Source: a virus
DNA length: 22,613 bases
IMG/VR virus record: IMGVR_UViG_3300007539_000250
Location: 1 to 22,613 of that record
Reading direction: 5' to 3' (one strand)
Part shown: piece after piece, positions 1 through 22,613 of the stretch
Position numbering within the stretch: the stretch's first letter is position 1
Layout of the letters: the number at the start of each line of letters is the position of its first letter
Program-made: the position numbers and the translations under genes
The notes under the pieces: generated by a model
The model's database searches: none
The model's input: the letters and a program-made list of their open reading frames with translations, nothing else
What the model was told of the DNA's origin: nothing

Positions 1-3000
1 ACAACGGAAATTGTTGGCGTTCCTGCGGGAGTTATTGGAACTGCACAAAAAGGGCCCGCTTTTGTTCCTGTTACAGTCGGGTCATTTTTAGATTTTGAGA
101 ATAAATTTGGGTCTCTTGATCCAGAAAAATTTGGAACTTATGCGGTTAATGAGTGGCTTAAAAACAGAACAGCACTTACTTACGTAAGAGTTTTGGGTGC
201 GGGTGCGAATAGCACGACTACAGATATATCAAACACACAGACAGCTGGAACTGTTAAAAATGCAGGATTTAAATTGTCAGGATCTAGATCTGATTCTGAC
301 AATAGGTACGATGGCGTCGTCCAGTTTCTTGTTGCTAAACACGATCCTCAAGCAAACGAACAGTATGGGATGCCTCTCTTTACTGACAATAGCTCGGTTG
401 ATGCATCAGGTGATGTACATCTCATAAGAGCAATGCTTATGACACCTAGTGGCTCGAGATTCGAGGTTTTAGATCATAATGGATTTTATGCAGGAACTTC
501 TACGTCAGATGATACTGCCAAGATAAGATCATACGACGGAACTACAGAACAAGGGATATTTAAGCTTGTTCTTTCTTCAGCAGCAGGCTCTAACTTTTCG
601 AGTGATGAGACATTTTCAGGTATTAAAATTTATACTGCTTCTCTTAATCCAGACAGCAAACACTATGTAGCCAAAATTTTAAATACAAACCCAGATAGAT
701 TTAACGAGTCGCAACACTTTTTATATTCACACTTTCCAGTAGAAGATGAGCTTGCAAGAGTTAAACATGATGCTGCAGCTGCTACTGTTGCAATACTTTC
801 AGGATCAGATAAGACTCATGCAGGTGCAGGAGGAAATGGAACGACATACACAGAGCTTTTTGGATCTTTTAATACTAGATACCAGACAGCTAAGTCAACT
901 TCTTTTATATCACAACCTTTTGGAGAAATAGAGTACGATCTGTTTCACTTTGAAGCTTTAGACGATGGAACAGCAGGTAACAGAAAAGTTAAAGTATCAA
1001 TTTCAAACCTTAGAAAGTCTACAAATATAAAAGATCCTTACGGAACGTTTACAGTTCTTGTAAGAGATTTTTATGATACTGATACTGATCTTAAGATTTT
1101 AGAACAATACTCGCAGTGCACTCTAAATCCTGCAGATGAAAATTATGTTGGGACAAAGATTGGAGACTTGAAGGCGTACTATAATTTTGATGCAGAGACA
1201 GACTCTGAAAGAAGACTTAACGTTGACGGAAAAAGACCTATTAGATCTTCTTATGTTAGAATTGTAATGCATCCTGATGTTGAAGATAGAAAAATTCCGG
1301 CGGGATGTCTTCCTTTTGGATTCAGAGGTCTTCCCGTTGTTAAAACTACAAATTCTTTGACTGATAATACTTCTATTTTATCAGAATGCGTTTTAAATAC
1401 AGAAAATACTACTCGTCTTTCTTTGGTAGGCACCGGCGCTGAATTGTCTCTTACGGGCTCAATTTTTCCTCCTGTACCTTTAAGATTTAAAGCAACAAGA
1501 GGCGCTGTTTCTTCTTCGCCTGGGTTTACGGGTGCTCCTGGCTCTCTAGAGCTAGCTGATTCAAGATATTTCTTTGGAATTAAATTTGAAAGAGTTCCAG
1601 CAGAAGGAGATGTCACTAATGCTGTTCTCAAAGCTAACGGCAGCGGAGAGCACAATTATCTTTTGAGCAACTATTCACAGCTTCTTGGTATTTCTAAGCT
1701 CGATGTTTTAGTTACCGGATCTGGCGCTGACGCTTTTAATGATAATAAGTTTACATTGGCAAAAGTGGCACTTTACCATCAGCCTTCAGCAGGCCAGACA
1801 CCAAATACGATAATGGGTGCTTTAACAGGCTCAGTTTCAGAGCACATGCTAGAAGCAGCCTATATTAGAAATGGTGTGCTTAATAAACCTCAGTATACAA
1901 TCACAGATGACGTAGGATCAAGAACAAGAATGACGTTTGGAACTATTGCCGCAGCTACCTCGTCAGTTGTTTTCAATAGATTTACAGACTACATGAAGTT
2001 TACTAACATGCTGTACGGTGGTTTTGATGGATTTAACGTTCTCGATAGAGATCAAAGAAAAATGAATGACAAGGCTTCTTCTGTCGATTCGGGTGGAAAA
2101 GCAGCAGGAGATGACAAAGGGTACATAGGTCTTTCAGTAAGTTCATCACCAGGCGCTGGAAAAGACAATAATATAATAAATTCTTACAGGACAGGGATTA
2201 AGATTCTTACCGATCCTTTCGCATCTAGAGTCAATATTGTCACAATTCCAGGAATAAGAGACAGCTATGTAACAGACTTTGCCATCGAAAAGACAAAAGA
2301 GTACAGCAAAGCTATCTATTTAATGGATATGCCTGCATACGACGATAGTTTAAATAGACTTTACGATGATGCAACAACACGTCCTCATGTAAGAAAAACA
2401 GTTGAACAATTTGAATCAAGAGCACTTGACAGCAATTATTCAGCTACATATTTCCCAGATGTTATTATAGAAGATGAGCAAACAACAGAAGCTGTTAACG
2501 TTCCTCCTTCAGTTGTTGCTCTGGGCGCATTAGGTTACAATGATAGAATATCTTTCCCATGGTTTGCTCCAGCAGGCTTCAATAGAGGTTCTTTGGATAC
2601 TGTGCTAAACACTGAGGTAAGACTTACTGCTGAAGATAGAAATATTTTGTACGAGGCGCGTATTAATCCTATCGCAAACTTTCCTGACGGTGGTTTTGTA
2701 ATATTTGGACAAAAGACACTTCAGCAAGCAAAATCTTCACTAGACAGAGTCAATGTTAGAAGAATGTTGCTAGAAGTAAAGAGGATAGTTTCAGATATTG
2801 CAAACGGATTAATCTTTGAACAAAACACACCTCAAACTCGAGCAAGATTCTTATCACTCGTCAAGCCTAAGCTTGCTTCAATTCAAGGAAATCAAGGCAT
2901 TGATAGTTTTAATGTTATCATGGATTCTTCAAACAATTCCAACGAAGACATTGAACAAAATAGACTTAATGGAAAAATTGTTGTTGTCCCAACAAGAGCT

Positions 3001-3057
3001 GTAGAATTTATTGCAATTGATTTCATTATTACAAATTCAGGCGTGAGTTTTGAATAA
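1..3057 (+). CDS. Tail sheath protein, first copy (5' end missing)
   Basis: Contractile tail sheath subunit, which polymerises around the tail tube and shortens to drive infection. The frame is open from base 1 to the TAA at 3055-3057 (1018 visible residues). The first visible residues (EIVGVPAGVIGT) match the second sheath protein near its residue 22, so only about 20 residues lie upstream of the window. The conserved sheath C-terminal part is present: VPPSVVALGALGYND, then PWFAPAGFNRG near visible residue 853, DRVNVRRMLLEVKR, and a last strand of the form AVEFIAIDFIITNSG. The middle part is a large divergent insertion. At roughly 1040 residues it is much longer than T4 gp18 (about 660). It is followed after 27 bases by a paralogue. 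The family call is firm; which copy forms the main sheath is unknown. An in-frame TTG at 193 lies well inside the conserved N-terminal domain and is not the start. Confidence 0.93.
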   Translation, partial: TTEIVGVPAGVIGTAQKGPAFVPVTVGSFLDFENKFGSLDPEKFGTYAVNEWLKNRTALTYVRVLGAGANSTTTDISNTQTAGTVKNAGFKLSGSRSDSDNRYDGVVQFLVAKHDPQANEQYGMPLFTDNSSVDASGDVHLIRAMLMTPSGSRFEVLDHNGFYAGTSTSDDTAKIRSYDGTTEQGIFKLVLSSAAGSNFSSDETFSGIKIYTASLNPDSKHYVAKILNTNPDRFNESQHFLYSHFPVEDELARVKHDAAAATVAILSGSDKTHAGAGGNGTTYTELFGSFNTRYQTAKSTSFISQPFGEIEYDLFHFEALDDGTAGNRKVKVSISNLRKSTNIKDPYGTFTVLVRDFYDTDTDLKILEQYSQCTLNPADENYVGTKIGDLKAYYNFDAETDSERRLNVDGKRPIRSSYVRIVMHPDVEDRKIPAGCLPFGFRGLPVVKTTNSLTDNTSILSECVLNTENTTRLSLVGTGAELSLTGSIFPPVPLRFKATRGAVSSSPGFTGAPGSLELADSRYFFGIKFERVPAEGDVTNAVLKANGSGEHNYLLSNYSQLLGISKLDVLVTGSGADAFNDNKFTLAKVALYHQPSAGQTPNTIMGALTGSVSEHMLEAAYIRNGVLNKPQYTITDDVGSRTRMTFGTIAAATSSVVFNRFTDYMKFTNMLYGGFDGFNVLDRDQRKMNDKASSVDSGGKAAGDDKGYIGLSVSSSPGAGKDNNIINSYRTGIKILTDPFASRVNIVTIPGIRDSYVTDFAIEKTKEYSKAIYLMDMPAYDDSLNRLYDDATTRPHVRKTVEQFESRALDSNYSATYFPDVIIEDEQTTEAVNVPPSVVALGALGYNDRISFPWFAPAGFNRGSLDTVLNTEVRLTAEDRNILYEARINPIANFPDGGFVIFGQKTLQQAKSSLDRVNVRRMLLEVKRIVSDIANGLIFEQNTPQTRARFLSLVKPKLASIQGNQGIDSFNVIMDSSNNSNEDIEQNRLNGKIVVVPTRAVEFIAIDFIITNSGVSFE

Positions 3058-3084
3058 TTATAAAGGATACATGGAGAATAAAAC

Positions 3085-6033
3085 ATGGCAGAATTAACAG
3101 GAAAATCAGCAGGCGTCGGTACTAGAGAGATTGACCTATCAGGACCTATACCCACTGGGCCTGCTGGCGTCCCCGCTGGAATTATAGGAACTTCTAATGA
3201 AGGGCCTGCTTATGTCCCTCTCACTTTTGCAACTTATGGGCAGTATAAAGCTACTTACGGATCTTCAGATGGTTTAAAGTATGGACCTATTGCAGCTAGT
3301 GAGTGGCTTAAGAGTGCTCAAGCTCTGACTTATGTTAGAGTTTTAGGCATCGGAGACGGTAAAAAAAGATCTTCTTCTACAGGAAATGTTACTCGTGCAG
3401 GATTTGTTGTCGGAGAAAAACAAGTACAAGCTGATGGAATTGTAGGGCACAACCCCTATGCTAATATCGGCGGAGAACCTGGAAGAACTTATTTCTTAGG
3501 CTGCTTCATGTCAGAATCAAATGGTTCGACAATATTTAGTTCTCCGGAAATACAAAATGCAACCAATTCTGTTCCAATTCTTCGTGGGGTAATTCTTGCT
3601 GCGTCTGGCGTTGTTTTGTCACTTAGCGGAGCAAAAGGTGTAACGAATACAGCACCCGACGCAGCCGCTGTTTCTTCTACTGTTCGTGGATACACAACTG
3701 GATCCGTCGTGTTAAGCTCAGGAGGCAGTGATTTTGTTCTCTTTATGAATGGTTATAAAGCCACAACGTCTAATCCTTCTGCAATTACAGCTTCTTTTGA
3801 TATGCATTCGCCCAATTATTTTCCAAATGTTTTAAATACAGATCCTTTGAAGCTCGAACAGAAAGGTCACGTATTATACGGGAAGTACGATGTTCATCCA
3901 GCATTGGCTGAAGTTACTGGTGCTGGAACTACAACTCCTGGAACCGGTTATCCAGAGCAGGCTGCATTCATACTTACGTCTTCTATTGGAAGAAATACTG
4001 CATCCGGAAACGTTCCTGTCTATGAATCATTTCAAGATAGATTTAGCAATGCTTCTTCACCATATGTAATTTCACAAAAGTTTGGTGCTGCGCCTTACAA
4101 CCTATTTAAACTTGAAACACTTTCAGACGGCGCTGGTGTTTCTCATAAATTTAAGTTTTCTATACAGAACATTGTTAAATCAACATCTGCAACTGATAAG
4201 TTTGGAACTTTTGATTTAGTTTTAAGAGATTTTTATGATTCTGATGATGAGAAAAAAGCTCTAATAACTTTTAGTGGGCTTTCTTTGGATCACTCTTCGC
4301 CAAGATTTATCGGAAGAGTTATAGGAGATAAAAAGATTTTCTTTAACTTTGATACTGATAATGAATCTCAAAAAATTGTCGTTGAAGGATCACATAATGT
4401 TACAAATAACTATGTTAGAGTTATTCTTTCTGATGAGTTAAAGAATAAAGAAGTTCCTGATGAAGCACTTCCAGTTGGATTTAGAGGTCCTAGACACCTC
4501 TTAACATCCGGATCTTTGTTAGCTAGTCCTGTCGTCGGAAGTGACTTGGTAATAAGTGACATGCACAGAAGAATAAGAGAACCTGCTGTGCCTTTCAGAG
4601 AGACAATTTCTCAAGGCACTGGATTTACAAAACGCGTGGATGTCAATTTACACTGGGGAATTCAAACCAATATTAAAACATCAGCTACAAAACCAAATCT
4701 TGTATCTGCCTTTGATACGACTTTTGAAACTATTTCAAAGTATTTTCCGACGCACAGAAAAGATTCTTTCAATTTTTCAGAAGGTGACAACGCCGGAGTC
4801 GCTGATGCTTTAGGGACTATTAGAGACTCAGATAGATTCAATCACAATAAGTTTACACTTGAAAATATTCAAGTAAGAACAGGATCTTCTGGTTTGGCTG
4901 ATCCGGATCAGTGGCTTAGCGCATCATACGTCAGAAATGGAGTGATTGCTGTTAATGCAACTAACAAGACAAGAGGATTAACTATGGATGACTTCGGTGT
5001 GGTATCTAATAGAAAATTCTTGAAGTTTACAGTTCCGTTACAGGGTGGTTTTGACGGTGTTAATATCTTTAACAAAGACCAACGAGACTTAGAAAATAAC
5101 GCTGCTAAGAGAGAAATTGACGATGAACTAAATCAAGGAGGAACATCTGGGCCTACAATTTCAGCTTATAGAAAAGCTTTGGATATAATGGGTTCTACTT
5201 CTGACGTTGATATTCAACTTCTTTCAATTCCTGGAATTAGACATGAAGCAGTTTCTGATTATGCTATTTCAACAGTTGAAAATAGATTTGATGCGATGCT
5301 TATCACAGATATTGAAGAAAGAGATCAGTTCAACACTGTTATTACTTCATCTGCACAGAAGCCACACGTTGCAAACACAGTTACAGCCTTCAAGAATAGA
5401 ATTTTAGACTCTTCTTTTGCAGCAGCTTATTTTCCAGACGTAACTGTTGAAGACCCAGATACACGTGGTCTGGTAACAGTTCCTCCATCAGTTGTCACAA
5501 TAGGTGCTTATGCACTTAATGATAAAATAGGTCATCCTTGGTTTGCTCCTGCTGGATTTACTAGAGGCGCACTTAGAACTGTTGAATCAACAAGTGTTAG
5601 ACTCAATAGAACAAATCTAGATGATCTATATGATGCAGACATCAATCCTTTGGCTCAATATCCAGGTAAGCCACTTGCTGTGTGGGGCCAAAAGACGCTA
5701 ATGGCAAACGCATCTGCTCTTGACAGAGTAAATGTTAGAAGGCTATTAATCGATGTTAGAAGAAAAGTTAGAAATATTGCTAATACTCTTCTATTTGAGC
5801 CTAACAGAAGCGAGACATTAGAGAAATTCTCTAACTTAGTCAATCCGATCTTGCAATCTGTACAAGATGCACAAGGTGTTGATAGATTCAAGGTTATCAT
5901 TGACACCACAACAACGACGCAGGCTGACGTTGAAAATAACACAATTAGGGGCAAGATCTATTTGCAGCCTACAAGAGCAGTAGAATTTGTTGCTCTCGAC
6001 TTTGTTGTCACAAATGCTGGAACAACTGTCTAG
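3085..6033 (+). CDS. Tail sheath protein, second copy
   Basis: Complete tail sheath subunit of 982 residues, paralogous to the gene just upstream. The ATG at 3085 is preceded by GGAG at 3073-3076. The conserved N-terminal segment (residues about 8-93) contains GVPAGIIGTSNEGPAYVP and ALTYVRVLGIGDG, both with close counterparts in the first copy. The C-terminal sheath domain (from about residue 700) has LLSIPGIRHEAVSDYA, VPPSVVTIGAYALND, PWFAPAGFTRG near residue 818, DRVNVRRLLIDVRRKVRNIA and QGVDRFKVIIDTTTT. The central domain differs most between the copies and is probably the surface-exposed decoration. Two stop codons in a row (TAG, TAA at 6031-6036) close the gene. It sits directly before the tube gene, as gp18 precedes gp19 in T4, which suggests it is the main sheath; that choice is inference. 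Confidence 0.95.
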   Translation: MAELTGKSAGVGTREIDLSGPIPTGPAGVPAGIIGTSNEGPAYVPLTFATYGQYKATYGSSDGLKYGPIAASEWLKSAQALTYVRVLGIGDGKKRSSSTGNVTRAGFVVGEKQVQADGIVGHNPYANIGGEPGRTYFLGCFMSESNGSTIFSSPEIQNATNSVPILRGVILAASGVVLSLSGAKGVTNTAPDAAAVSSTVRGYTTGSVVLSSGGSDFVLFMNGYKATTSNPSAITASFDMHSPNYFPNVLNTDPLKLEQKGHVLYGKYDVHPALAEVTGAGTTTPGTGYPEQAAFILTSSIGRNTASGNVPVYESFQDRFSNASSPYVISQKFGAAPYNLFKLETLSDGAGVSHKFKFSIQNIVKSTSATDKFGTFDLVLRDFYDSDDEKKALITFSGLSLDHSSPRFIGRVIGDKKIFFNFDTDNESQKIVVEGSHNVTNNYVRVILSDELKNKEVPDEALPVGFRGPRHLLTSGSLLASPVVGSDLVISDMHRRIREPAVPFRETISQGTGFTKRVDVNLHWGIQTNIKTSATKPNLVSAFDTTFETISKYFPTHRKDSFNFSEGDNAGVADALGTIRDSDRFNHNKFTLENIQVRTGSSGLADPDQWLSASYVRNGVIAVNATNKTRGLTMDDFGVVSNRKFLKFTVPLQGGFDGVNIFNKDQRDLENNAAKREIDDELNQGGTSGPTISAYRKALDIMGSTSDVDIQLLSIPGIRHEAVSDYAISTVENRFDAMLITDIEERDQFNTVITSSAQKPHVANTVTAFKNRILDSSFAAAYFPDVTVEDPDTRGLVTVPPSVVTIGAYALNDKIGHPWFAPAGFTRGALRTVESTSVRLNRTNLDDLYDADINPLAQYPGKPLAVWGQKTLMANASALDRVNVRRLLIDVRRKVRNIANTLLFEPNRSETLEKFSNLVNPILQSVQDAQGVDRFKVIIDTTTTTQADVENNTIRGKIYLQPTRAVEFVALDFVVTNAGTTV

Positions 6034-14123: not shown

Positions 14124-17100
14124 ATGGGAAGAGAGACAGAAAATGTTGATGTTGCTTTTGAAATGATATTGCAAGCAGCAAATGAATATGAAGGATATAT
14201 CTTGGGCATGCCCGAGAGTGATGTTATCACAGGAATTCTCAACGAAGTTAATGAAGAAAAAAATAGAAACTATGGAGATTCTGAAGCTAGAAAAATAAGA
14301 GACTTAATTACAAGAATTATAGACAGAACAACAGCCGCTCCTCAGCTTGATGAAATTGCCGAAACTTTAAAAAATAGGTGGGGTGACATAAATTTTTCTG
14401 GCAATTTTAGAGGAGGTCCAGCAGGACATGAAGATATTATTAGAGTTGTGCACAAAGGAGCAGGAGATGAATCTGGACAATACAGGATTAAAAAAGAATT
14501 TGCTCAAGCTGGCGAAGCTCCTGCTGGAAGCAATTTAGAAAATGAGTACTTAGAATTTAAAAATAAAGAAATGGCACACATTGTTAGGTACATAGATCCT
14601 AGAAAAGTGTCTAAAAGAGCTCCTACCGCCGAAGATCAAGCTCCTCCTGCGGCTGAAGCAACAGCTGCAAACAGCAGAGGACAAGTAGAAAGAACAATCT
14701 CTGGGACCACTGTTGCAGAAAGCGAGATTGACTTAAGTCAAATTCCTCCAGAAAGTTTTAATAACTCAAACGAATTAAGTGTGTCGTCTCCAAATCTAGG
14801 AGCAGTCATAATTAAAGATCCAAGATTTAGCTTTAGTTCAAAAAATTCAAATCATATGCCAGTATTTTTATCTGCGATTACTCCTATCGAGATGTCTAGG
14901 TGTACTCCTTATTTAGATATCAAAGTTATGTCTAGACAGCAATCGTCTTTCAATAAAATGGGAATATATAATTTTCTAAGAGTAACAGATGATCAAAAAG
15001 AAAATTCAGGTACTGCTTTTTTTAATCCTAGACCAGTTGATATAGATCCTGTAAAATCAGAAGGAGATGAGTTTTTTAATTATATGGATTTGTTTACATC
15101 TCCTCAGACAATGGTCAATGCAAATATTAATAAACAGTGGTTTGGTGAAAGAAACTATAAAAATTTTAGTAATTCCTTAAGTAATTTATTTAGTGAAAAA
15201 GGAGACAAAAGAACAGGAAAAGACTTTTTTTACTCTAGCGTAAATGATCCATTCCAACCTTTTATGACGCTATTAGGTCTAAATGTGTCAGTCTCAGGTA
15301 TCGGCTATGGTCTTTTAGCAACAAAAGTTGCTTCTTTGAGAATTAAGCTACATGACAAGTCTAGAATAAAAGATTTATCTCCACTTCTGGCACCAGAAGA
15401 ATTTAGTAAGACAAAATTTATTATTGAGTTCGGATGGTCACACCCAGACGGCGCCGTAACTTCAAATAATACGTTAGGACAATATTTAAATGCACTAAGA
15501 GACACAAACGTTTATCAATTGCAAGGTGCAGATTACAGCTTCGGAGATGATAACACAGTTGATATTACCTTAAGACTGGTTTGTGCCGGATTTAGTTATT
15601 TACAGTCTGTAAGTGCTGCTGCTGGAAAGCTCATATCAATTAAAAATGTTGCTAGAGAAATACAGGATACTTTAGACTTTATACTTGGCACTGGTGAAGG
15701 AAGTCTAAGTGATGATAGAATAGAAGAAATTAGAGGAACACTTAGAATATCTAATCAGGACTTTTCTAGACTGGGTAGTTTGTCTGATTTTGATAAAGTG
15801 AGCGAATTTAAGAAAAAATCAGAAGAATATAGAAAAAGTCTGCTTGCAGAAAAATTAGGAGGATTGACGGGGCTTTTAAACGTATTGCAAAATGAAATTG
15901 CTTCTCCCGAAGAAGAAGTTTTGAGAAAGATTATCGAAATAGTTTATAATTTTGAAAACAATGCTGAAACTGATTTATCTAAAATTGTTGCGCAATTAAA
16001 AAGTGGAGAAGGTAATTTTAGTTATGAAAACTTAGATGAAAAGCTTATTAACGCAGGAGATATTACTTATGCAAAATTAAGATCTCTTCCTTACGGAATA
16101 GATCCATTTCGCGGACAGGTTTCAACAAACTACATTGCGCACTTAAAAAGCTTAATGGATCCAGTAACATCTTTTATAGATGATATGCCCTTAATTGGTG
16201 TTGTTGGAGATCCTAATACTTCGTACAACTCTTTAAAGAGTAAAGACAAACATGTCTCTCTAGGTAAAATTATTAGTTCTTTTATAGGGTATCCTCTGTC
16301 TACATCACTTCAGTATGCAGAAGTTCAATTATTCTTTTATCCTGTAAATTCACACGCCGCGGCAGCATCAAAGCATACGACAGCTAGTTTACCGATTAGT
16401 TTGAAAATGTTAGAAAAAGAAATAGAAAAAAGAGTTTTGTCAAATGAGCAATCATTTAGAAATTTATCTGTACAGACGTTTTTTAACATGATTGACTCAA
16501 TTGTACAAAATGAGCAACTTCCTGCTTACGGCATGTATCCGGAAAATATATCTTCTATAAATGAAAGAATAGAAGCATTTGAGAAGAAGTCTGAAGAAGA
16601 AAAGTATGCAGAAGCTACCGGAGCCGACGGATTAGGCGCAGACGTTGCTCGGCTTGAAGATGAAGCAGCGGCGGCATATGCTGAACAAACTGCAGAAGGC
16701 GGCGGAAGCGAAAGAGAAAAAGAACAATATGTTGCTGCACAAATTATCGATACTTACAGACAAAAACTACAACAGGAATTAACTAATGCTTCTAGCTCTA
16801 GAGTAAATACAATTTATGATGCTGAAACACCTAGTACCGGCGACCAGCCTGTTAAAGCTGCCTACTTAGATAGAGATAAGTTTAAACATATTAATCTATC
16901 AATGTTTTTCGAAACTGTTCCAGCAAAGCAAAAAAGTAAAATGGGAGATTCTAATGATCCTCCTAAAAAAAGAATAATTGACTTTTATAAAAGTAAAAAA
17001 GATGACAGAAGAGAAGTAACTGCAAGAGGTATTGATCATAAAAACAGCATATTAAGAATACACATTTATGATGAAAATGCAACAATGAATCCAGACTTAG

Positions 17101-17630
17101 GATATTTCGGTTCAGGATTTTCAAATACAAATGGTCAACCTACTTCTAATGTAATATTAGACAACTTGCTTTCTTATTCATATGTAAAAGATCTTCTTAT
17201 GACTTATCACCCAACAATAATACACGGATCTTCTACAGGAGTAATCAATAATATAAGAGTTTCTGGTAATACAACAGGCCAACATGCTAATATATTGATT
17301 GCTGAAAGTTATCTCGAGTTAAACAATAAAAAAGATGACAAAGATATTGGTGACAGCGGGTTTGATGAAACTGTTTTTCTTCCTACAACTGTTAGTTTAG
17401 AAATGATGGGTTTTCCGATGTTAGCAAGAGGCCAGCAAATTTTTATAGATTTTGGAACTCAGACAAGCTTGGATAACTTGTATTCAGTAAAGTCTATAGA
17501 GCATTCAATACAAGCAGGTATATTTAAAACAACAGCAACTTTACAAGCAACTAATCAAATGATTGTCACAGCTTATAGAGACAGACTGAAGACTATGGTT
17601 GCAAGAGCAATTGACAAAGGAAATGTGTAA
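14124..17630 (+). CDS. Large baseplate hub-like protein
   Basis: 1168-residue protein, probably the baseplate hub that links the tape measure and tube to the central spike (T4 gp27 / gpD role). Around residue 430 it has FIIEFGWSHPDGAVT and LRLVCAGFSYLQSV. The C-terminal part (about 1085-1165) has LEMMGFPMLARGQQIFIDFG and NLYSVKSIEHSIQAGIFKTT, a beta arrangement seen in hub proteins. Other parts are an N-terminal helical segment, an Ala/Pro-rich linker near 170-185, and a highly charged, probably coiled-coil stretch at about 813-890. T4 gp27 has only 391 residues, so additional domains are fused here. The ATG at 14124 has GAGG (14115-14118) overlapping the LysM gene's stop. No lysozyme-like catalytic domain was recognised. 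Family assignment is by segments and position. Confidence 0.68.
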   Translation: MGRETENVDVAFEMILQAANEYEGYILGMPESDVITGILNEVNEEKNRNYGDSEARKIRDLITRIIDRTTAAPQLDEIAETLKNRWGDINFSGNFRGGPAGHEDIIRVVHKGAGDESGQYRIKKEFAQAGEAPAGSNLENEYLEFKNKEMAHIVRYIDPRKVSKRAPTAEDQAPPAAEATAANSRGQVERTISGTTVAESEIDLSQIPPESFNNSNELSVSSPNLGAVIIKDPRFSFSSKNSNHMPVFLSAITPIEMSRCTPYLDIKVMSRQQSSFNKMGIYNFLRVTDDQKENSGTAFFNPRPVDIDPVKSEGDEFFNYMDLFTSPQTMVNANINKQWFGERNYKNFSNSLSNLFSEKGDKRTGKDFFYSSVNDPFQPFMTLLGLNVSVSGIGYGLLATKVASLRIKLHDKSRIKDLSPLLAPEEFSKTKFIIEFGWSHPDGAVTSNNTLGQYLNALRDTNVYQLQGADYSFGDDNTVDITLRLVCAGFSYLQSVSAAAGKLISIKNVAREIQDTLDFILGTGEGSLSDDRIEEIRGTLRISNQDFSRLGSLSDFDKVSEFKKKSEEYRKSLLAEKLGGLTGLLNVLQNEIASPEEEVLRKIIEIVYNFENNAETDLSKIVAQLKSGEGNFSYENLDEKLINAGDITYAKLRSLPYGIDPFRGQVSTNYIAHLKSLMDPVTSFIDDMPLIGVVGDPNTSYNSLKSKDKHVSLGKIISSFIGYPLSTSLQYAEVQLFFYPVNSHAAAASKHTTASLPISLKMLEKEIEKRVLSNEQSFRNLSVQTFFNMIDSIVQNEQLPAYGMYPENISSINERIEAFEKKSEEEKYAEATGADGLGADVARLEDEAAAAYAEQTAEGGGSEREKEQYVAAQIIDTYRQKLQQELTNASSSRVNTIYDAETPSTGDQPVKAAYLDRDKFKHINLSMFFETVPAKQKSKMGDSNDPPKKRIIDFYKSKKDDRREVTARGIDHKNSILRIHIYDENATMNPDLGYFGSGFSNTNGQPTSNVILDNLLSYSYVKDLLMTYHPTIIHGSSTGVINNIRVSGNTTGQHANILIAESYLELNNKKDDKDIGDSGFDETVFLPTTVSLEMMGFPMLARGQQIFIDFGTQTSLDNLYSVKSIEHSIQAGIFKTTATLQATNQMIVTAYRDRLKTMVARAIDKGNV

Positions 17631-17659: not shown

Positions 17660-18739
17660 ATGCTTCAAAATTTTAAAAAAGTTAATATTTCAAATTTAAT
17701 AATTGATCCTTCGTTTGACTATCTATCTGGTCAGAAGATTGTTTCTTTAAATTCAGATGGGATCGATATATCAATAGCATCTTTAAACATGATAAGAAAT
17801 ATAAGTCATTTAGATTCTATTAAAAGTATTTTTGAAACTAATTTTAAAATTTGCGATGTTTTAAATTTAAATAATAATGATAAAGTAAATTGGAAGTACT
17901 TGATAGGAAAAGAGTCATGCTTGAGTTATGCTTGCAATCTAAAAAAAGAAATATTATTTTCCAAAGATATTATTACTACTTATCATACAGAAATATTTTA
18001 TAAAAGAAAGATGTTATATAACAATCTTAGCCAAATCTTAGATAAAGATAAAAATATTTTAGAAGCCCCTGTTTATGATCATTCAGGCGTCTCAGGAAGA
18101 ACTAGTATAAAGTCAGGTTTTAATTTTCTAACTTCCTCCAAAGACTTTAGAAAGACTTGTCAATCTAAGATTGATGGAAATATGCTTGTAAGTGTTGACT
18201 TTAAGTCTTGCGAGCCTAATCTTTATTTGAGATCGATCGGAAAAAATATTCCAAATTCAGACGTTTACAAGTATCTAGTCGAAGAGTTAAATATAAAAGT
18301 TGAAGAAAGAGAGAAACTAAAAAGAGGAATATTGTCAGTACTATATGGAGCATCAGATGAAACAGCAAGTAGAATATTGGGAGGAGATAAAAATACTTTA
18401 AATAAGATAAAAGAATTTTTTGAGATCGAAAAATGGACGAAAGAGTTACAAAAAGAGTTTGATGAGAAAAAATATATTTTTAACATGTATGGAAGACCAA
18501 TATTTTCAGATAAAAGTATTTTAAATAAATGGATTCAGTCTTCAGCAGTTGACTTTTGCAGTTTAGCATTTTTAAATTTAGTAGAAGAGCATGATTTAAA
18601 AGTTGCCTATCTTGTCCATGATGACATGGTTATTGACTGTACCAAAGATAAGTTTGAAAAAATTAAAAACATAAAAGCATTGCTAGATCCTTATGCTAAT
18701 ATTTCTCTTCCTGTAGAAGTTACTGTTTTAAGTGCATAA
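17660..18739 (+). CDS. Minimal family A DNA polymerase
   Basis: 359-residue template-directed DNA polymerase of the Pol I family, reduced to the polymerase core. Motif A is SVDFKSCEPNLYLR, with D180 and E185 matching E. coli D705 and E710. Motif B (O helix) is REKLKRGILSVLYGA, with R217, K221 and Y229-G230; L225 stands where Pol I has F762. Motif C is YLVHDDMVID with H320, D321, D322. N289 and Q293 match N845 and Q849, and GRTS (146-149) matches the template-binding TGR segment. The N-terminal 110 residues are unlike an exonuclease domain, and the thumb is very short. The ATG at 17660 has no SD. Spot counts show much lower GC than the neighbours. It lies between tail genes and the replication module and overlaps the next gene by eight bases. 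It could be the phage replicase or an accessory gap-filling enzyme. Confidence 0.87.
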   Translation: MLQNFKKVNISNLIIDPSFDYLSGQKIVSLNSDGIDISIASLNMIRNISHLDSIKSIFETNFKICDVLNLNNNDKVNWKYLIGKESCLSYACNLKKEILFSKDIITTYHTEIFYKRKMLYNNLSQILDKDKNILEAPVYDHSGVSGRTSIKSGFNFLTSSKDFRKTCQSKIDGNMLVSVDFKSCEPNLYLRSIGKNIPNSDVYKYLVEELNIKVEEREKLKRGILSVLYGASDETASRILGGDKNTLNKIKEFFEIEKWTKELQKEFDEKKYIFNMYGRPIFSDKSILNKWIQSSAVDFCSLAFLNLVEEHDLKVAYLVHDDMVIDCTKDKFEKIKNIKALLDPYANISLPVEVTVLSA

Positions 18740-20324
18740 TTATTCTGTGAAAAAAGACAAACTAAAAGAGTATTATGGAACACAACGACCGTCTTTTGCT
18801 GGAGGCCCTGGAGCAGGAAGCAATTTCTATAGCGGAAGAGATCTTGGTTTTCATTCACGAGGTAGTTTAGGCACAAGAGGCGCCGACTCAAATTTTTCGA
18901 GGATAACAATGCAGAGAATAGTACCAGAAGATCTGTACGAAGAAGAAATAGAGATAGACGAAGATTACGAAGTCGAAAATTCTAGATATTCTCTAGAAGA
19001 AACTTTAGAATTAATCAAAGAATGGACGGAAGGCCCAGATGGAGTTTTGGATCCAGAACCTGGAGATATCGTACCTGTCAATTCAGAAAACGAGTCTTCT
19101 TCAACATCATTGGCACTTATATCTAAGTCTGAAGACTCAGCTCAAGAGCTAATAGGCGACATATTTTTAGATACTAAACAAATAGCTGATATTACTAGTA
19201 TTGCGTACACTATTGGAAAATCTAAAAGTAAAAGTGAAATAGCTGCAAATGTTGCCGCTTTGTTTACACGCGGGGGCAGAGTCGCCGGCGGAGCTGCTGC
19301 TAGAAAAATTCCTGTCCTAGCTGATGTTATGTCAATATTTGATTTTTTTAAGTCTTGGTATGATATTGTCTCAAGTGCAAGCAAAATAAAAGAGATGGAT
19401 AAAGATTTTAAAAAGATGCTTAAGACAACATCTATGAAAGAAATGGTTAGAAAAAGAGAACATTACATAGATTTGTTTATTGATGGTATCAAGGCTGTAG
19501 AGAAAGAGCAAAAAATAATATATGAAGATATCGGAGAAATGCTAGAAAATTTAATAGAAGTTCTTTCACCATTAGACTATTTTGCTGCTATACTCGGCAC
19601 CGCAGGAACACCAGCAGGAACAGTTGCAGCAGGTGTGGCAGCAAAAACATTAGAAGGCGCAACAGCTTCTGTTATAGGTGAAGTATTAGAAAAAGCAATT
19701 AAAGAAATGACACAGTCGTTTGAAATAGACGCTGACGGAGATCAGTTTTTGACTTGGCTTAAACAAAATAGAGATCCTAGTTCAAGAGGTTTAAGATTTT
19801 TAGTGTGGTTTCTTGGAATTTTTAATATGATCCCGGGCTCTGGACTTTTTACTCTAGGCTTTTCAGGTGTATTTGAAGGTCTTTTGAGAGGTGCAAAACT
19901 ACAAAATACTCTGATGCAAAAAATTACAATGCTTAAAAATCCTGACATTATACCCGCAGAAGACTTAGAAGATTCAGAATCTTTGACATCATCAGCTGCA
20001 GATGCCGTAGTTAAAGCTTTCTTTAGTCCCACAGGATCATCTTCAGGAATATTTAGCAATGTTTTTAACGAGTCTCTAGAAAAAAGATCACTTATTTATC
20101 TAATAGAAGAAAAAGACCCCGAACTCTCAGAAGAAGCCGAAGAAGATGTAAATGAAATATCCGGAGCCGGTGCAGCTGCAGGATTTACTTTACCGCTAGG
20201 CGCTTCTCCAGAAAGTGATAGTGGGCAAAGAAGTAGTCACTCAGGTGGCACTGCTTTCCCATACGGTAAGAAAACACAGCGAAGAAGAAAAGAATTTGCT
20301 AGAAAAACGTTTGGTGGAAAATAA
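18732..20324 (+). CDS. Unknown protein with hydrophobic segments, coupled to the polymerase
   Basis: 530 residues from the GTG at 18732, which overlaps the polymerase stop by eight bases. An ATG at 18909 with GAGG six bases upstream is the alternative start (471 residues). The upstream portion reads as Gly/Arg-rich protein and leaves no gap, so I keep the longer form. Residues 66-120 are very acidic (EEEIEIDEDYE), 180-190 are Gly/Ala/Arg-rich, and 205-275 are charged and helical. Residues 281-304 are Ala/Gly-rich (LDYFAAILGTAGTPAGTVAA), and 355-384 are strongly hydrophobic (LRFLVWFLGIFNMIPGSGLF and onward), a possible membrane hairpin. The C-terminus is basic (KKTQRRRKEFARK). I recognise no family. 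A virion or ejected protein acting at a membrane is one possibility; a polymerase partner is another. Neither is demonstrated. Confidence 0.8.
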   Translation: MHNYSVKKDKLKEYYGTQRPSFAGGPGAGSNFYSGRDLGFHSRGSLGTRGADSNFSRITMQRIVPEDLYEEEIEIDEDYEVENSRYSLEETLELIKEWTEGPDGVLDPEPGDIVPVNSENESSSTSLALISKSEDSAQELIGDIFLDTKQIADITSIAYTIGKSKSKSEIAANVAALFTRGGRVAGGAAARKIPVLADVMSIFDFFKSWYDIVSSASKIKEMDKDFKKMLKTTSMKEMVRKREHYIDLFIDGIKAVEKEQKIIYEDIGEMLENLIEVLSPLDYFAAILGTAGTPAGTVAAGVAAKTLEGATASVIGEVLEKAIKEMTQSFEIDADGDQFLTWLKQNRDPSSRGLRFLVWFLGIFNMIPGSGLFTLGFSGVFEGLLRGAKLQNTLMQKITMLKNPDIIPAEDLEDSESLTSSAADAVVKAFFSPTGSSSGIFSNVFNESLEKRSLIYLIEEKDPELSEEAEEDVNEISGAGAAAGFTLPLGASPESDSGQRSSHSGGTAFPYGKKTQRRRKEFARKTFGGK

Positions 20325-20413: not shown

Positions 20414-21190
20414 ATGGCAGTTGATTTTGACGCGATTAGAGCAAAGCTAGCCCGTTTGAGCGGCGCAAACACAAACCGTAACGTAACTTGGAAGCCAACT
20501 GAAGGTGAAGAACACACAGTTCGTCTTATTGCATTCCCCGATAATGACGGGCAACCTTTCAAGGAAATTCAGTGGTATTACAATATTCCAGGAGCTCGAG
20601 GCATCGTAGCACCTTTTCAGTTCGGAAAGAAAGATCCTGTACAGGAGCTTATTTCTAAGCTTCGTGAAGAAGGTTCAAAAGAGTCTTACGAGATGGCAAA
20701 GAATCTTTATCCTTCAATGCGTACATACGCTGCTGTTATCGTCCGCGGACAAGAAGATGAAGGCGTAAAGATTTGGTCTTTTGGAAAGACAGTTTACCAG
20801 AAGCTTCTTTCTATCATGCTTGATGAAGATTACGGTGATATTACTGATCCTCTCGAGGGGCGCGATGTCAAGGTTGTCTGCACTAAGCCTCCGGGCAAGA
20901 AGTACGCTATGACTGACGTCATGCCACGTGGTAAGTCTACTAAGCTTTCTACAAACAGCAAGCAGACCAAAGAGTGGTTAGACAATATGCCTGCGGTTGA
21001 AGATCTTTACACACTTAAGTCTTATGATGAACTATCTGGAATTCTTGAGCGCTGGATCAATGGCGACGATGAATCAGTCTCTAGTGAGGGTACAGAACAC
21101 CCAACTTCTACTGCTTCTTCGTCAGATAATGACACTTCTTCTGGAAACTACGACAGTCTTGACGATGCATTTGCTGACTTGATGGACTGA
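20414..21190 (+). CDS. Single-stranded DNA-binding protein (gp32-like)
   Basis: 258-residue SSB that coats single-stranded DNA at the fork and in recombination. The N-terminal basic arm (residues 1-28, IRAKLARLSG then VTWKP) resembles the cooperativity region of gp32. The core has EGEEHTVRLIAFP, YPSMRTYAAVIV and IWSFGKTVYQKLLSIM (120-135), the last matching gp32 around its FGKKIWDKI segment. The C-terminal tail is Ser/Asp-rich and ends DSLDDAFADLMD, the acidic partner-binding tail. The T4 zinc-binding Cys/His set is absent: C156 is the only Cys. A strong SD lies just upstream. Arg is coded 6 times CGT, 3 CGC, 1 CGA and only 1 AGA, unlike the neighbours, which fits very high expression. T4 gp32 is somewhat longer (301). 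Confidence 0.9.
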   Translation: MAVDFDAIRAKLARLSGANTNRNVTWKPTEGEEHTVRLIAFPDNDGQPFKEIQWYYNIPGARGIVAPFQFGKKDPVQELISKLREEGSKESYEMAKNLYPSMRTYAAVIVRGQEDEGVKIWSFGKTVYQKLLSIMLDEDYGDITDPLEGRDVKVVCTKPPGKKYAMTDVMPRGKSTKLSTNSKQTKEWLDNMPAVEDLYTLKSYDELSGILERWINGDDESVSSEGTEHPTSTASSSDNDTSSGNYDSLDDAFADLMD

Positions 21191-21290: not shown

Positions 21291-22469
21291 ATGAAAAACG
21301 ATGATGATTTTACCAAAGACTTAATTAAGTCTTTAAATAAAGAGCAAGGCTCTAGAGTAGCCTACAACCTATCCGAAGACGAAAGCCCTACACATGTTAA
21401 GCGATGGATTAGTACTGGTTCAAGGATGCTTGACTGGATTTGTGCTAATAGAAAAAATGGAGGGTTTCCAGAAGGTAGAATTGTAGAAATATTTGGTCCA
21501 CCGAGTATTGGTAAGTCACATATTGCTACACAAATTGCAAGAAGTACCCAAAAGATGGGAGGAATTGTCGTTTATATCGATACTGAAAATGCCACTTCAG
21601 TAGAAAATCTTCAGATGCTGGGTGTAGACGTATCTAAGCGATTTGTTTATGTTGATACTCACTGTACTGAAGAAGTTTTGTCAATTGCAGAAAAGACTAT
21701 TCTTAAAGCAAAAGCTCTTGATAAAGATGTTCCTGTAACAGTCATTTGGGATTCTGTTGCAGCATCTTCACCTAAAGCAGAACTCTTAGGCGACTATGAC
21801 AAAGAAAGCATTGGGTTGCAAGCAAGAGCTATTTCTAAGGGTATGCGTAAAATTACAGGTGTAATTGGTCAAACTAACAGCTTGTTTGTAATTCTTAATC
21901 AAATTAGAACAAAAGTAGGAGTTATGTATGGAGATCCTGATACTACACCCGGGGGTAAGGCAATCCCTTTTCACTCATCTATACGAATCAAACTGGGTGC
22001 AGGACAGCAAATCAAAGACGGAGATGATGTCATTGGTATTCAAGTTTGGGCGAAGACTGTTAAGAATAAGGTAGCTCCTCCGTTTAGAAAGTCTCACTTT
22101 CAGATTCACTTTGGAAAAGGTATTGTTGAACACGAAGAGCTTTTTGATTTGCTTAGAAAACATTGCAAGGAAAATGATGTTATCAAAGACAATATTATGT
22201 ACAAAATTGATGGCGGTGGTGCTTGGAAAGCTATTAGTATGACCGACACAAATACTGGAGAAATCATTGCAGAAAAGAAGTTTTACAAAACAAACTTTAA
22301 TGAAATCATTGAGTGTGAAGAGTGGACTGACGCAGTAGATATTTTAACTGAAGCTGCTATGGAAAAGAAGTTAGGGTCTATTGAAGGTGTTGATATTGAC
22401 TCTGAGTCCTATGAAGAAGTTCAAGCTTTGGCCCAAGAATTAGAAATGGACCTAGATGTAGATGTATAA
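21291..22469 (+). CDS. RecA/UvsX-like recombinase
   Basis: 392-residue ATP-dependent strand-exchange protein. Walker A is GPPSIGKS (residues 69-76), the catalytic Glu is E99 in VVYIDTENA, and Walker B is VTVIWDSVAA with D154. Loop L2 and its surroundings read NQIRTKVGVMYGDPDTTPGG (203-222). These follow bacterial RecA (GPESSGKT; NQIR.K.GVMFG.P.TTPGG) more closely than T4 UvsX. The C-terminal part (about 330-392) is acidic and ends EMDLDVDV, as in many recombinases whose acidic tail moderates DNA binding. The ATG has AAAGGAG (21279-21285) five bases upstream. It lies between the SSB and a 5'-3' exonuclease, a standard recombination set: nuclease to resect, SSB to coat, recombinase to pair. Confidence 0.92.
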   Translation: MKNDDDFTKDLIKSLNKEQGSRVAYNLSEDESPTHVKRWISTGSRMLDWICANRKNGGFPEGRIVEIFGPPSIGKSHIATQIARSTQKMGGIVVYIDTENATSVENLQMLGVDVSKRFVYVDTHCTEEVLSIAEKTILKAKALDKDVPVTVIWDSVAASSPKAELLGDYDKESIGLQARAISKGMRKITGVIGQTNSLFVILNQIRTKVGVMYGDPDTTPGGKAIPFHSSIRIKLGAGQQIKDGDDVIGIQVWAKTVKNKVAPPFRKSHFQIHFGKGIVEHEELFDLLRKHCKENDVIKDNIMYKIDGGGAWKAISMTDTNTGEIIAEKKFYKTNFNEIIECEEWTDAVDILTEAAMEKKLGSIEGVDIDSESYEEVQALAQELEMDLDVDV

Positions 22470-22613
22470 AAATAGAGTCATACTTGTAGATGGATTAAAT
22501 CTGTTTACAAGGCACTTTATGGCAAATCCTGCAATGTCTGAAAACGGCGAGCACGTTGGAGGAATTGTAGGATTTTTTAATGCTATGATGCGTCTTGTAG
22601 AAAAATGCAAACC
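22462..22613 (+). CDS. 5'-3' exonuclease, FEN/PIN-like (3' end missing)
   Basis: Start of a gene running off the window; 50 codons are visible. The ATG at 22462 overlaps the recombinase stop by eight bases, and no strong SD is visible, so translational coupling is likely. The N-terminal strand RVILVDGLNLFTRHF carries the conserved metal-binding Asp (D10) in the VDG.N pattern of FEN-type 5' nucleases. It is followed by a helix (GGIVGFFNAMMRLVEK), as in T4 RNase H, T5 exonuclease and the Pol I 5' nuclease domain. Such enzymes remove RNA primers and 5' flaps. With the small polymerase upstream it would supply the nuclease function absent from that protein. Confidence 0.8.
   Translation, partial: MYKNRVILVDGLNLFTRHFMANPAMSENGEHVGGIVGFFNAMMRLVEKCK

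Follow-up and report, generated by a model that had tools for sequence, protein, structure and literature searches.

An uncultivated virus contig of 22,613 bases (the window, meaning the whole stretch of DNA analysed here) encodes a predicted family A DNA polymerase, mini-PolA, that is compact and proofreading-free, in which a short N-terminal domain precedes a palm and fingers with the full set of canonical catalytic residues. Larger related genomes carry a full Pol III-type polymerase, hence in these marine phages mini-PolA is most likely a helper, rather than the main copying enzyme. The window, which ends 3.9 kb past mini-PolA, contains the following features.

193-6033, plus strand: two tandem tail sheath genes (193-3057 and 3085-6033; Pfam and PHROG matches)
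14124-17630, plus strand: large protein, presumably baseplate or tail (position and synteny)
17660-18739, plus strand: mini-PolA, predicted stand-alone family A DNA polymerase (Pfam, PHROG, 27-sequence alignment, AlphaFold and Foldseek)
17660-18079, plus strand: N-terminal ~140 residues of mini-PolA, a possible substitute thumb (model and profile comparison)
18098-18100, plus strand: R147, the R668-like arginine of the (T/S)GR motif (invariant in 27/27)
18197-18214, plus strand: motif A, D180 to E185 (DFKSCE; D, K, C and E invariant)
18308-18349, plus strand: motif B, R217-K221-L225-Y229-G230 (27-sequence alignment)
18524-18538, plus strand: N289 to Q293, equivalents of N845 and Q849 (invariant)
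18617-18625, plus strand: motif C, H320-D321-D322 (H and D invariant)
18732-20324, plus strand: variable insert gene, 530 aa by the first GTG (family search and synteny)
20414-21190, plus strand: gp32-like single-strand DNA binding protein, SSB (phrog_1192, E 8e-20)
21291-22469, plus strand: UvsX/RecA-like recombinase (phrog_97, E 2e-66)
22471-22613, plus strand: separate Pol I-type 5' nuclease, start only, as the contig end cuts the gene (tblastn to relatives)

The mini-PolA frame runs from an ATG start to a TAA stop and encodes 359 amino acids, in the position and at the length given by the first-pass annotation, whose residue numbers (D180, E185, R217, K221, Y229-G230, N289, Q293 and H320-D321-D322) were likewise all correct. 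The Pfam DNA_pol_A model matched the protein at 41.4 bits, against a cut-off of 34.3, as did phrog_17 (DNA polymerase) at E 6e-15; at the level of sequence, the family A match is far above chance. Motif conservation was scored on an alignment of 27 mini-PolA sequences, throughout which R147, D180, E185, R217, K221, Y229, G230, N289, Q293, H320 and D321 were invariant. The active site had been described as complete, which holds for these catalytic residues, but not for the third residue of motif C, which was D in eight sequences, S in 13 and A in six, and which corresponds to E883 in Pol I. The 762 position (F762 in Pol I, L225 in mini-PolA) was always L or I. E185 is the equivalent of E710, the steric gate of Pol I, and its retention in all 27 sequences is what one would expect of an enzyme that makes DNA and not RNA. 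R668, D705, R754, Y766, N845 and H881 of E. coli Pol I are equivalent to R147, D180, R217, Y229, N289 and H320, and successive spacings are 33, 37, 12, 60 and 31 residues in mini-PolA, against 37, 49, 12, 79 and 36 in Pol I. Hence the shortening mainly affects the stretches between motifs A and B, and after motif B, while sparing the active site. The reported absence of a 3'-5' exonuclease domain stands, as a 359-aa frame leaves no room for one and no profile matched, and the predicted protein is an obvious candidate for a very small DNA polymerase without an exonuclease.

Structure prediction had been proposed as a check on this reading, and an AlphaFold2 model from 27 sequences (mean pLDDT 92.3, pTM 0.89; pLDDT 80.8 with eight sequences) indeed places the catalytic residues in the classical palm arrangement: strand 175-181 has D180 at its end, and strands 314-319 and 322-327 are joined by a turn that holds H320-D321. 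The best PDB matches found by Foldseek were without exception large fragments of Pol I, those of Bacillus, Thermus and E. coli (E ~1e-11 to 1e-9), and the modelled protein has the Pol I fold. However, the whole-chain TM-score against these fragments was only ~0.48, with a large rmsd, indicating that domain placement, or the N-terminal part, differs from Pol I. Residues 1-140 had no detectable homology by profile comparison to canonical thumb regions, or to divPolA1, a recently described group of divergent phage polymerases. This part was predicted well (pLDDT about 85-95), and its two adjacent long helices (84-104 and 107-119), which precede the palm, could be thumb-like, making a substitute thumb plausible in the model. 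The thumb previously called reduced is therefore better described as a short N-terminal part lacking a detectable homologue, with no recognisable canonical thumb.

Two IMG/VR scans, returning 12 and then 41 loci, brought the known distribution of mini-PolA to about 40 loci on uncultivated phage contigs. Nearly all of these relatives had intact frames of 344-390 aa, the exceptions being fragments at contig edges and two records with a frameshift; one of the two, L070, has one base fewer across the gene than the intact L050. Values of dN/dS were 0.06-0.2 in most of the closer pairs with measurable synonymous change, a pattern indicating that mini-PolA is under purifying selection. These data bear on the suggestion that the gene is what decay has left of a longer Pol I, in favour of which its low GC (27%), fast divergence and two frameshifted records could be cited. 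The ~40 full-length relatives, the invariant catalytic residues and the selection against amino acid change refute it, and low GC is common to all relatives examined, such that the probability of decay is practically nil. Among 50,697 annotated phage records, there was no relative of the window protein at E 1e-5, nor of two divergent members of the clade, and no relative was confirmed in a set with one genome per prokaryote species. The mini-PolA clade thus comprises compact, conserved family A polymerases absent, at this threshold, from ~50,700 annotated phage records.

The tail sheath genes place the contig among T4-like contractile-tail phages. Every relative of sufficient length had the same order of mini-PolA, a variable insert, SSB, UvsX, 5' nuclease, DnaB and RNR, with a small baseplate wedge-like gene, flanked by two large tail proteins, upstream of mini-PolA. 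The first-pass annotation had placed the polymerase next to tail genes, which is correct for one side only, the other side being a replication-recombination cassette. The large protein at 14124-17630, to which a family search gave no match, was always encoded immediately 5' of mini-PolA, and the insert gene at 18732-20324 was mainly present in the window's sub-clade, with unrelated genes in its place in other relatives. The 5' nuclease is encoded by its own gene, as had been envisaged, starting at 22471 in the window and found within the same cassette in relatives. Its full-length relatives, at the same cassette position, are 5_3_exonuc_N proteins resembling the 5' nuclease domain of Taq Pol I (E 1e-20), and the similarity identifies it as the Pol I N-terminal domain in stand-alone form. 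A 317-aa 'exonuclease' past UvsX was rejected as a proofreading enzyme, having proved to be a 5' nuclease. Across 11/11 loci, mini-PolA was the lowest-GC gene of its neighbourhood (23-31%, versus 32-38% for the locus). The tandem sheaths differ from one another and are very long (954 or more and 982 aa), and both are kept in relatives, including G001 and G003.

A second conserved module comprises a SbcD-SbcC fusion, an AAA ATPase, a DnaG-like primase and a RuvC-like resolvase. The fusion of SbcD and SbcC (gp47- and gp46-like) is ~1040 aa long (L027 8872-11991 in G001) and occurs in 6/6 large relatives, defined as the six contigs of 134-237 kb. A core protein combining a PAP2-type phosphatase with a Fic/DOC domain, encoded near the primase gene (L017 4402-5721), was also in 6/6. 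A 787-aa core protein beside RuvC was considered as a hidden polymerase, and rejected because its sequence looks structural, of LamG type.

It had been proposed that other polymerases be sought in the rest of the genome. The large relatives yielded neither a family B nor a second family A polymerase, but a DnaE-type Pol III alpha was complete in four of the six, and in two smaller contigs (G003, G009, G010, G012, G014 and G015 in total). This protein of ~1170 aa has PHP, PF07733 polymerase, fingers and HHH_6 domains, contains the active-site string PDIDSD, and scored 600 bits against TIGR00594, for which the cut-off is 434. It is encoded 29-39 kb downstream of mini-PolA, some contig positions being approximate. 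DnaE is present on all six contigs that extend 44 kb or further past mini-PolA, and none of the contigs lacking it extends beyond 32 kb; the two large relatives lacking it (G011, 134 kb, and G001, 136 kb) stop before, or at about, the DnaE site. By extension from these relatives, the window's own phage would carry DnaE too, outside the 22.6-kb contig. A separate gene for a DnaQ-like exonuclease was found in G003, G010, G012 and G013, but in none of the other genomes surveyed, meaning the expectation of a separate exonuclease was borne out in four genomes only.

The first-pass annotation left two roles open, an unusual replicase or an accessory polymerase. The strongest evidence against mini-PolA being the replicase is that identity between genomes is 83-91% for DnaE, and only 33-52% for mini-PolA. 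The latter diverges fastest within its cassette, where mean identities are 69% for SSB, 78% for UvsX, 76% for DnaB and 59% for the 5' nuclease. Hence the unusual-replicase option is unsupported, whereas the accessory option is supported by the presence of DnaE in all relatives extending far enough. We therefore consider it probable that mini-PolA is an accessory polymerase and DnaE the replicase, with the polymerase and 5' nuclease activities of Pol I on separate genes. DnaE would copy the phage genome, while mini-PolA and the separate 5' nuclease would remove RNA primers and fill Okazaki gaps, in the manner of the two ends of Pol I, and mini-PolA might also extend recombination joints made by UvsX. 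Within a T4-like virion, labour would then be divided in bacterial style between Pol III alpha and a split Pol I. As to the accessory task itself, Okazaki gap filling, recombination synthesis and repair synthesis are each compatible with the data.

A replicase, too, could be expected beside DnaB, SSB and UvsX, and Yutin et al. interpret the gene context of divPolA1 as replicative (PMC11348598). Were mini-PolA the main replicase, it would be a minimal one, relying on SSB for processivity and on separate nucleases, consistent with the DnaB, SSB and 5' nuclease that accompany it, and with G011 and G001 having no other polymerase. This is nevertheless improbable, given that every contig extending far enough has the much more conserved DnaE, and that Leu at the 762 position, which has been associated with lysogeny rather than with a lytic life cycle (PMC9069017), is unexpected for a T4-like replicase. 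An earlier reading of mini-PolA as the sole replicase, based on the lack of a PolB or second PolA in the six large genomes, was dropped when the search for Pol III alpha found DnaE. Alternatively, mini-PolA could be dedicated to recombination-primed synthesis, extending UvsX D-loops before DnaE takes over for bulk replication. In all contigs examined, the enzyme lies near UvsX and the gp32-like SSB, and all six large genomes have the SbcC-SbcD fusion and the RuvC-like resolvase among their core genes, but the 5' nuclease in the same cassette suits primer removal equally well or better, making such exclusive use unlikely, though more credible than a main replicase. Least credible of these roles is an RNA polymerase or primer-making enzyme, as proposed for divPolA2, a further group of phage polymerases. 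RNA polymerases have been co-opted from PolA-type enzymes (PMC11348598), and mini-PolA has an N-terminal domain without a detectable homologue; against this, E185 is invariant, canonical PolA is the closest profile match, and a separate DnaG-like primase is a core gene, leaving this conversion very improbable.

The closest parallel to the accessory role that we favour is divPolA1, which Yutin et al. (2024) described in 14 phages around Flavobacterium phage immuto as a divergent PolA with a truncated thumb and an inactivated exonuclease domain, adjoining a conserved replication cassette, and accompanied by a second, regular polymerase of family A, B or C (PMC11348598). The divPolA1 cassette order is seen in immuto, and mini-PolA shares the slot upstream of SSB, UvsX, 5' nuclease and DnaB. 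Both are small family A polymerases without working proofreading, and both coexist with a regular polymerase, which for mini-PolA is the DnaE of its relatives. However, divPolA1 proteins are about 395-452 aa (16 examined), rather than 344-390 aa, whereas mini-PolA has no exonuclease remnant, and an N-terminus unmatched to theirs. In addition, 16/16 divPolA1 sequences have His at 710, Tyr at 754 and Tyr at 881, where mini-PolA has Glu, Arg and His; a closer match may exist beyond these 16, among further divPolA1 genomes of Yutin et al. such as the GOV-bin and LR79 records. In profile comparisons, mini-PolA was nearer to canonical PolA (E 4e-15, with eight sequences) than to divPolA1 (1e-10); the opposite order, obtained when a single canonical sequence was used, was reversed with eight and discarded. 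The two groups are separate clades in the phylogeny (support 99/98 for mini-PolA, 100/100 for divPolA1), and the branch joining them is short, among long branches, such that the two may be sister groups, or one may have displaced the other at the same position. On sequence grounds, mini-PolA is intact and conserved, in a clade of its own.

It is quite possible, if somewhat short of probable, that mini-PolA represents a third, undescribed divergent phage PolA group, in which the core, a new N-terminal domain and the separate 5' nuclease amount to a split Pol I beside a phage Pol III alpha. Were this true, one T4-like phage lineage would have rebuilt the bacterial two-polymerase replication scheme. 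In the T4-like metagenome relatives, DnaE, the presumed replicase, is combined with a Pol I-like enzyme whose parts lie on two genes, raising the question of which polymerase matures Okazaki fragments in large phages.

Canonical Pol I/Klenow, and phage PolA such as T7 gp5 and T5-like enzymes, share the polymerase core and all catalytic motifs with mini-PolA, and are its closest profile match, but mini-PolA lacks the 3'-5' exonuclease and a recognisable thumb, has shorter inter-motif stretches, and has its 5' nuclease on another gene, downstream of UvsX. The divPolA2 proteins of barbaviruses, ICP1, and Vibrio and Aeromonas phages (phrog_4756) resemble mini-PolA in having no exonuclease and an N-terminal domain unlike a thumb, yet differ in their variable gene neighbourhood beside PolB (PMC11348598). 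Motif A is DFKxxE in the divPolA2 member of Vibrio phage 1.063.O, as in mini-PolA, but profile similarity is weak (E 2e-6), and divPolA2 proteins are longer (~420-435 aa); phrog_4756 gave only a partial match to the window protein (E 5e-5), against E 2e-91 for a divPolA2 reference. Rhodothermus phage RM378 has a related sheath gene, and encodes its polymerase and exonuclease on separate genes, but it was rejected as a precedent for a split family A polymerase, as its polymerase, p092, reads as family B by motifs.

Several incidental observations concern these other groups. divPolA1 is very abundant, with at least 565 viral-contig loci in IMG/VR (queries A2 and the Mel-JY01 protein), compared with the 14 phages originally reported. 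An unannotated divPolA1-type protein is present in the PolB-carrying Microcystis phage Mel-JY01 (50397-51623, WWT39333; L074 10398-11621), where the neighbouring WWT39339 is labelled DNA polymerase I and matches the 5' nuclease. PHROG 4756, listed as of unknown function, is the divPolA2 family (L313 7473-8762), and the member found in Vibrio phage ICP1 (L314 301-1605) is labelled hypothetical.
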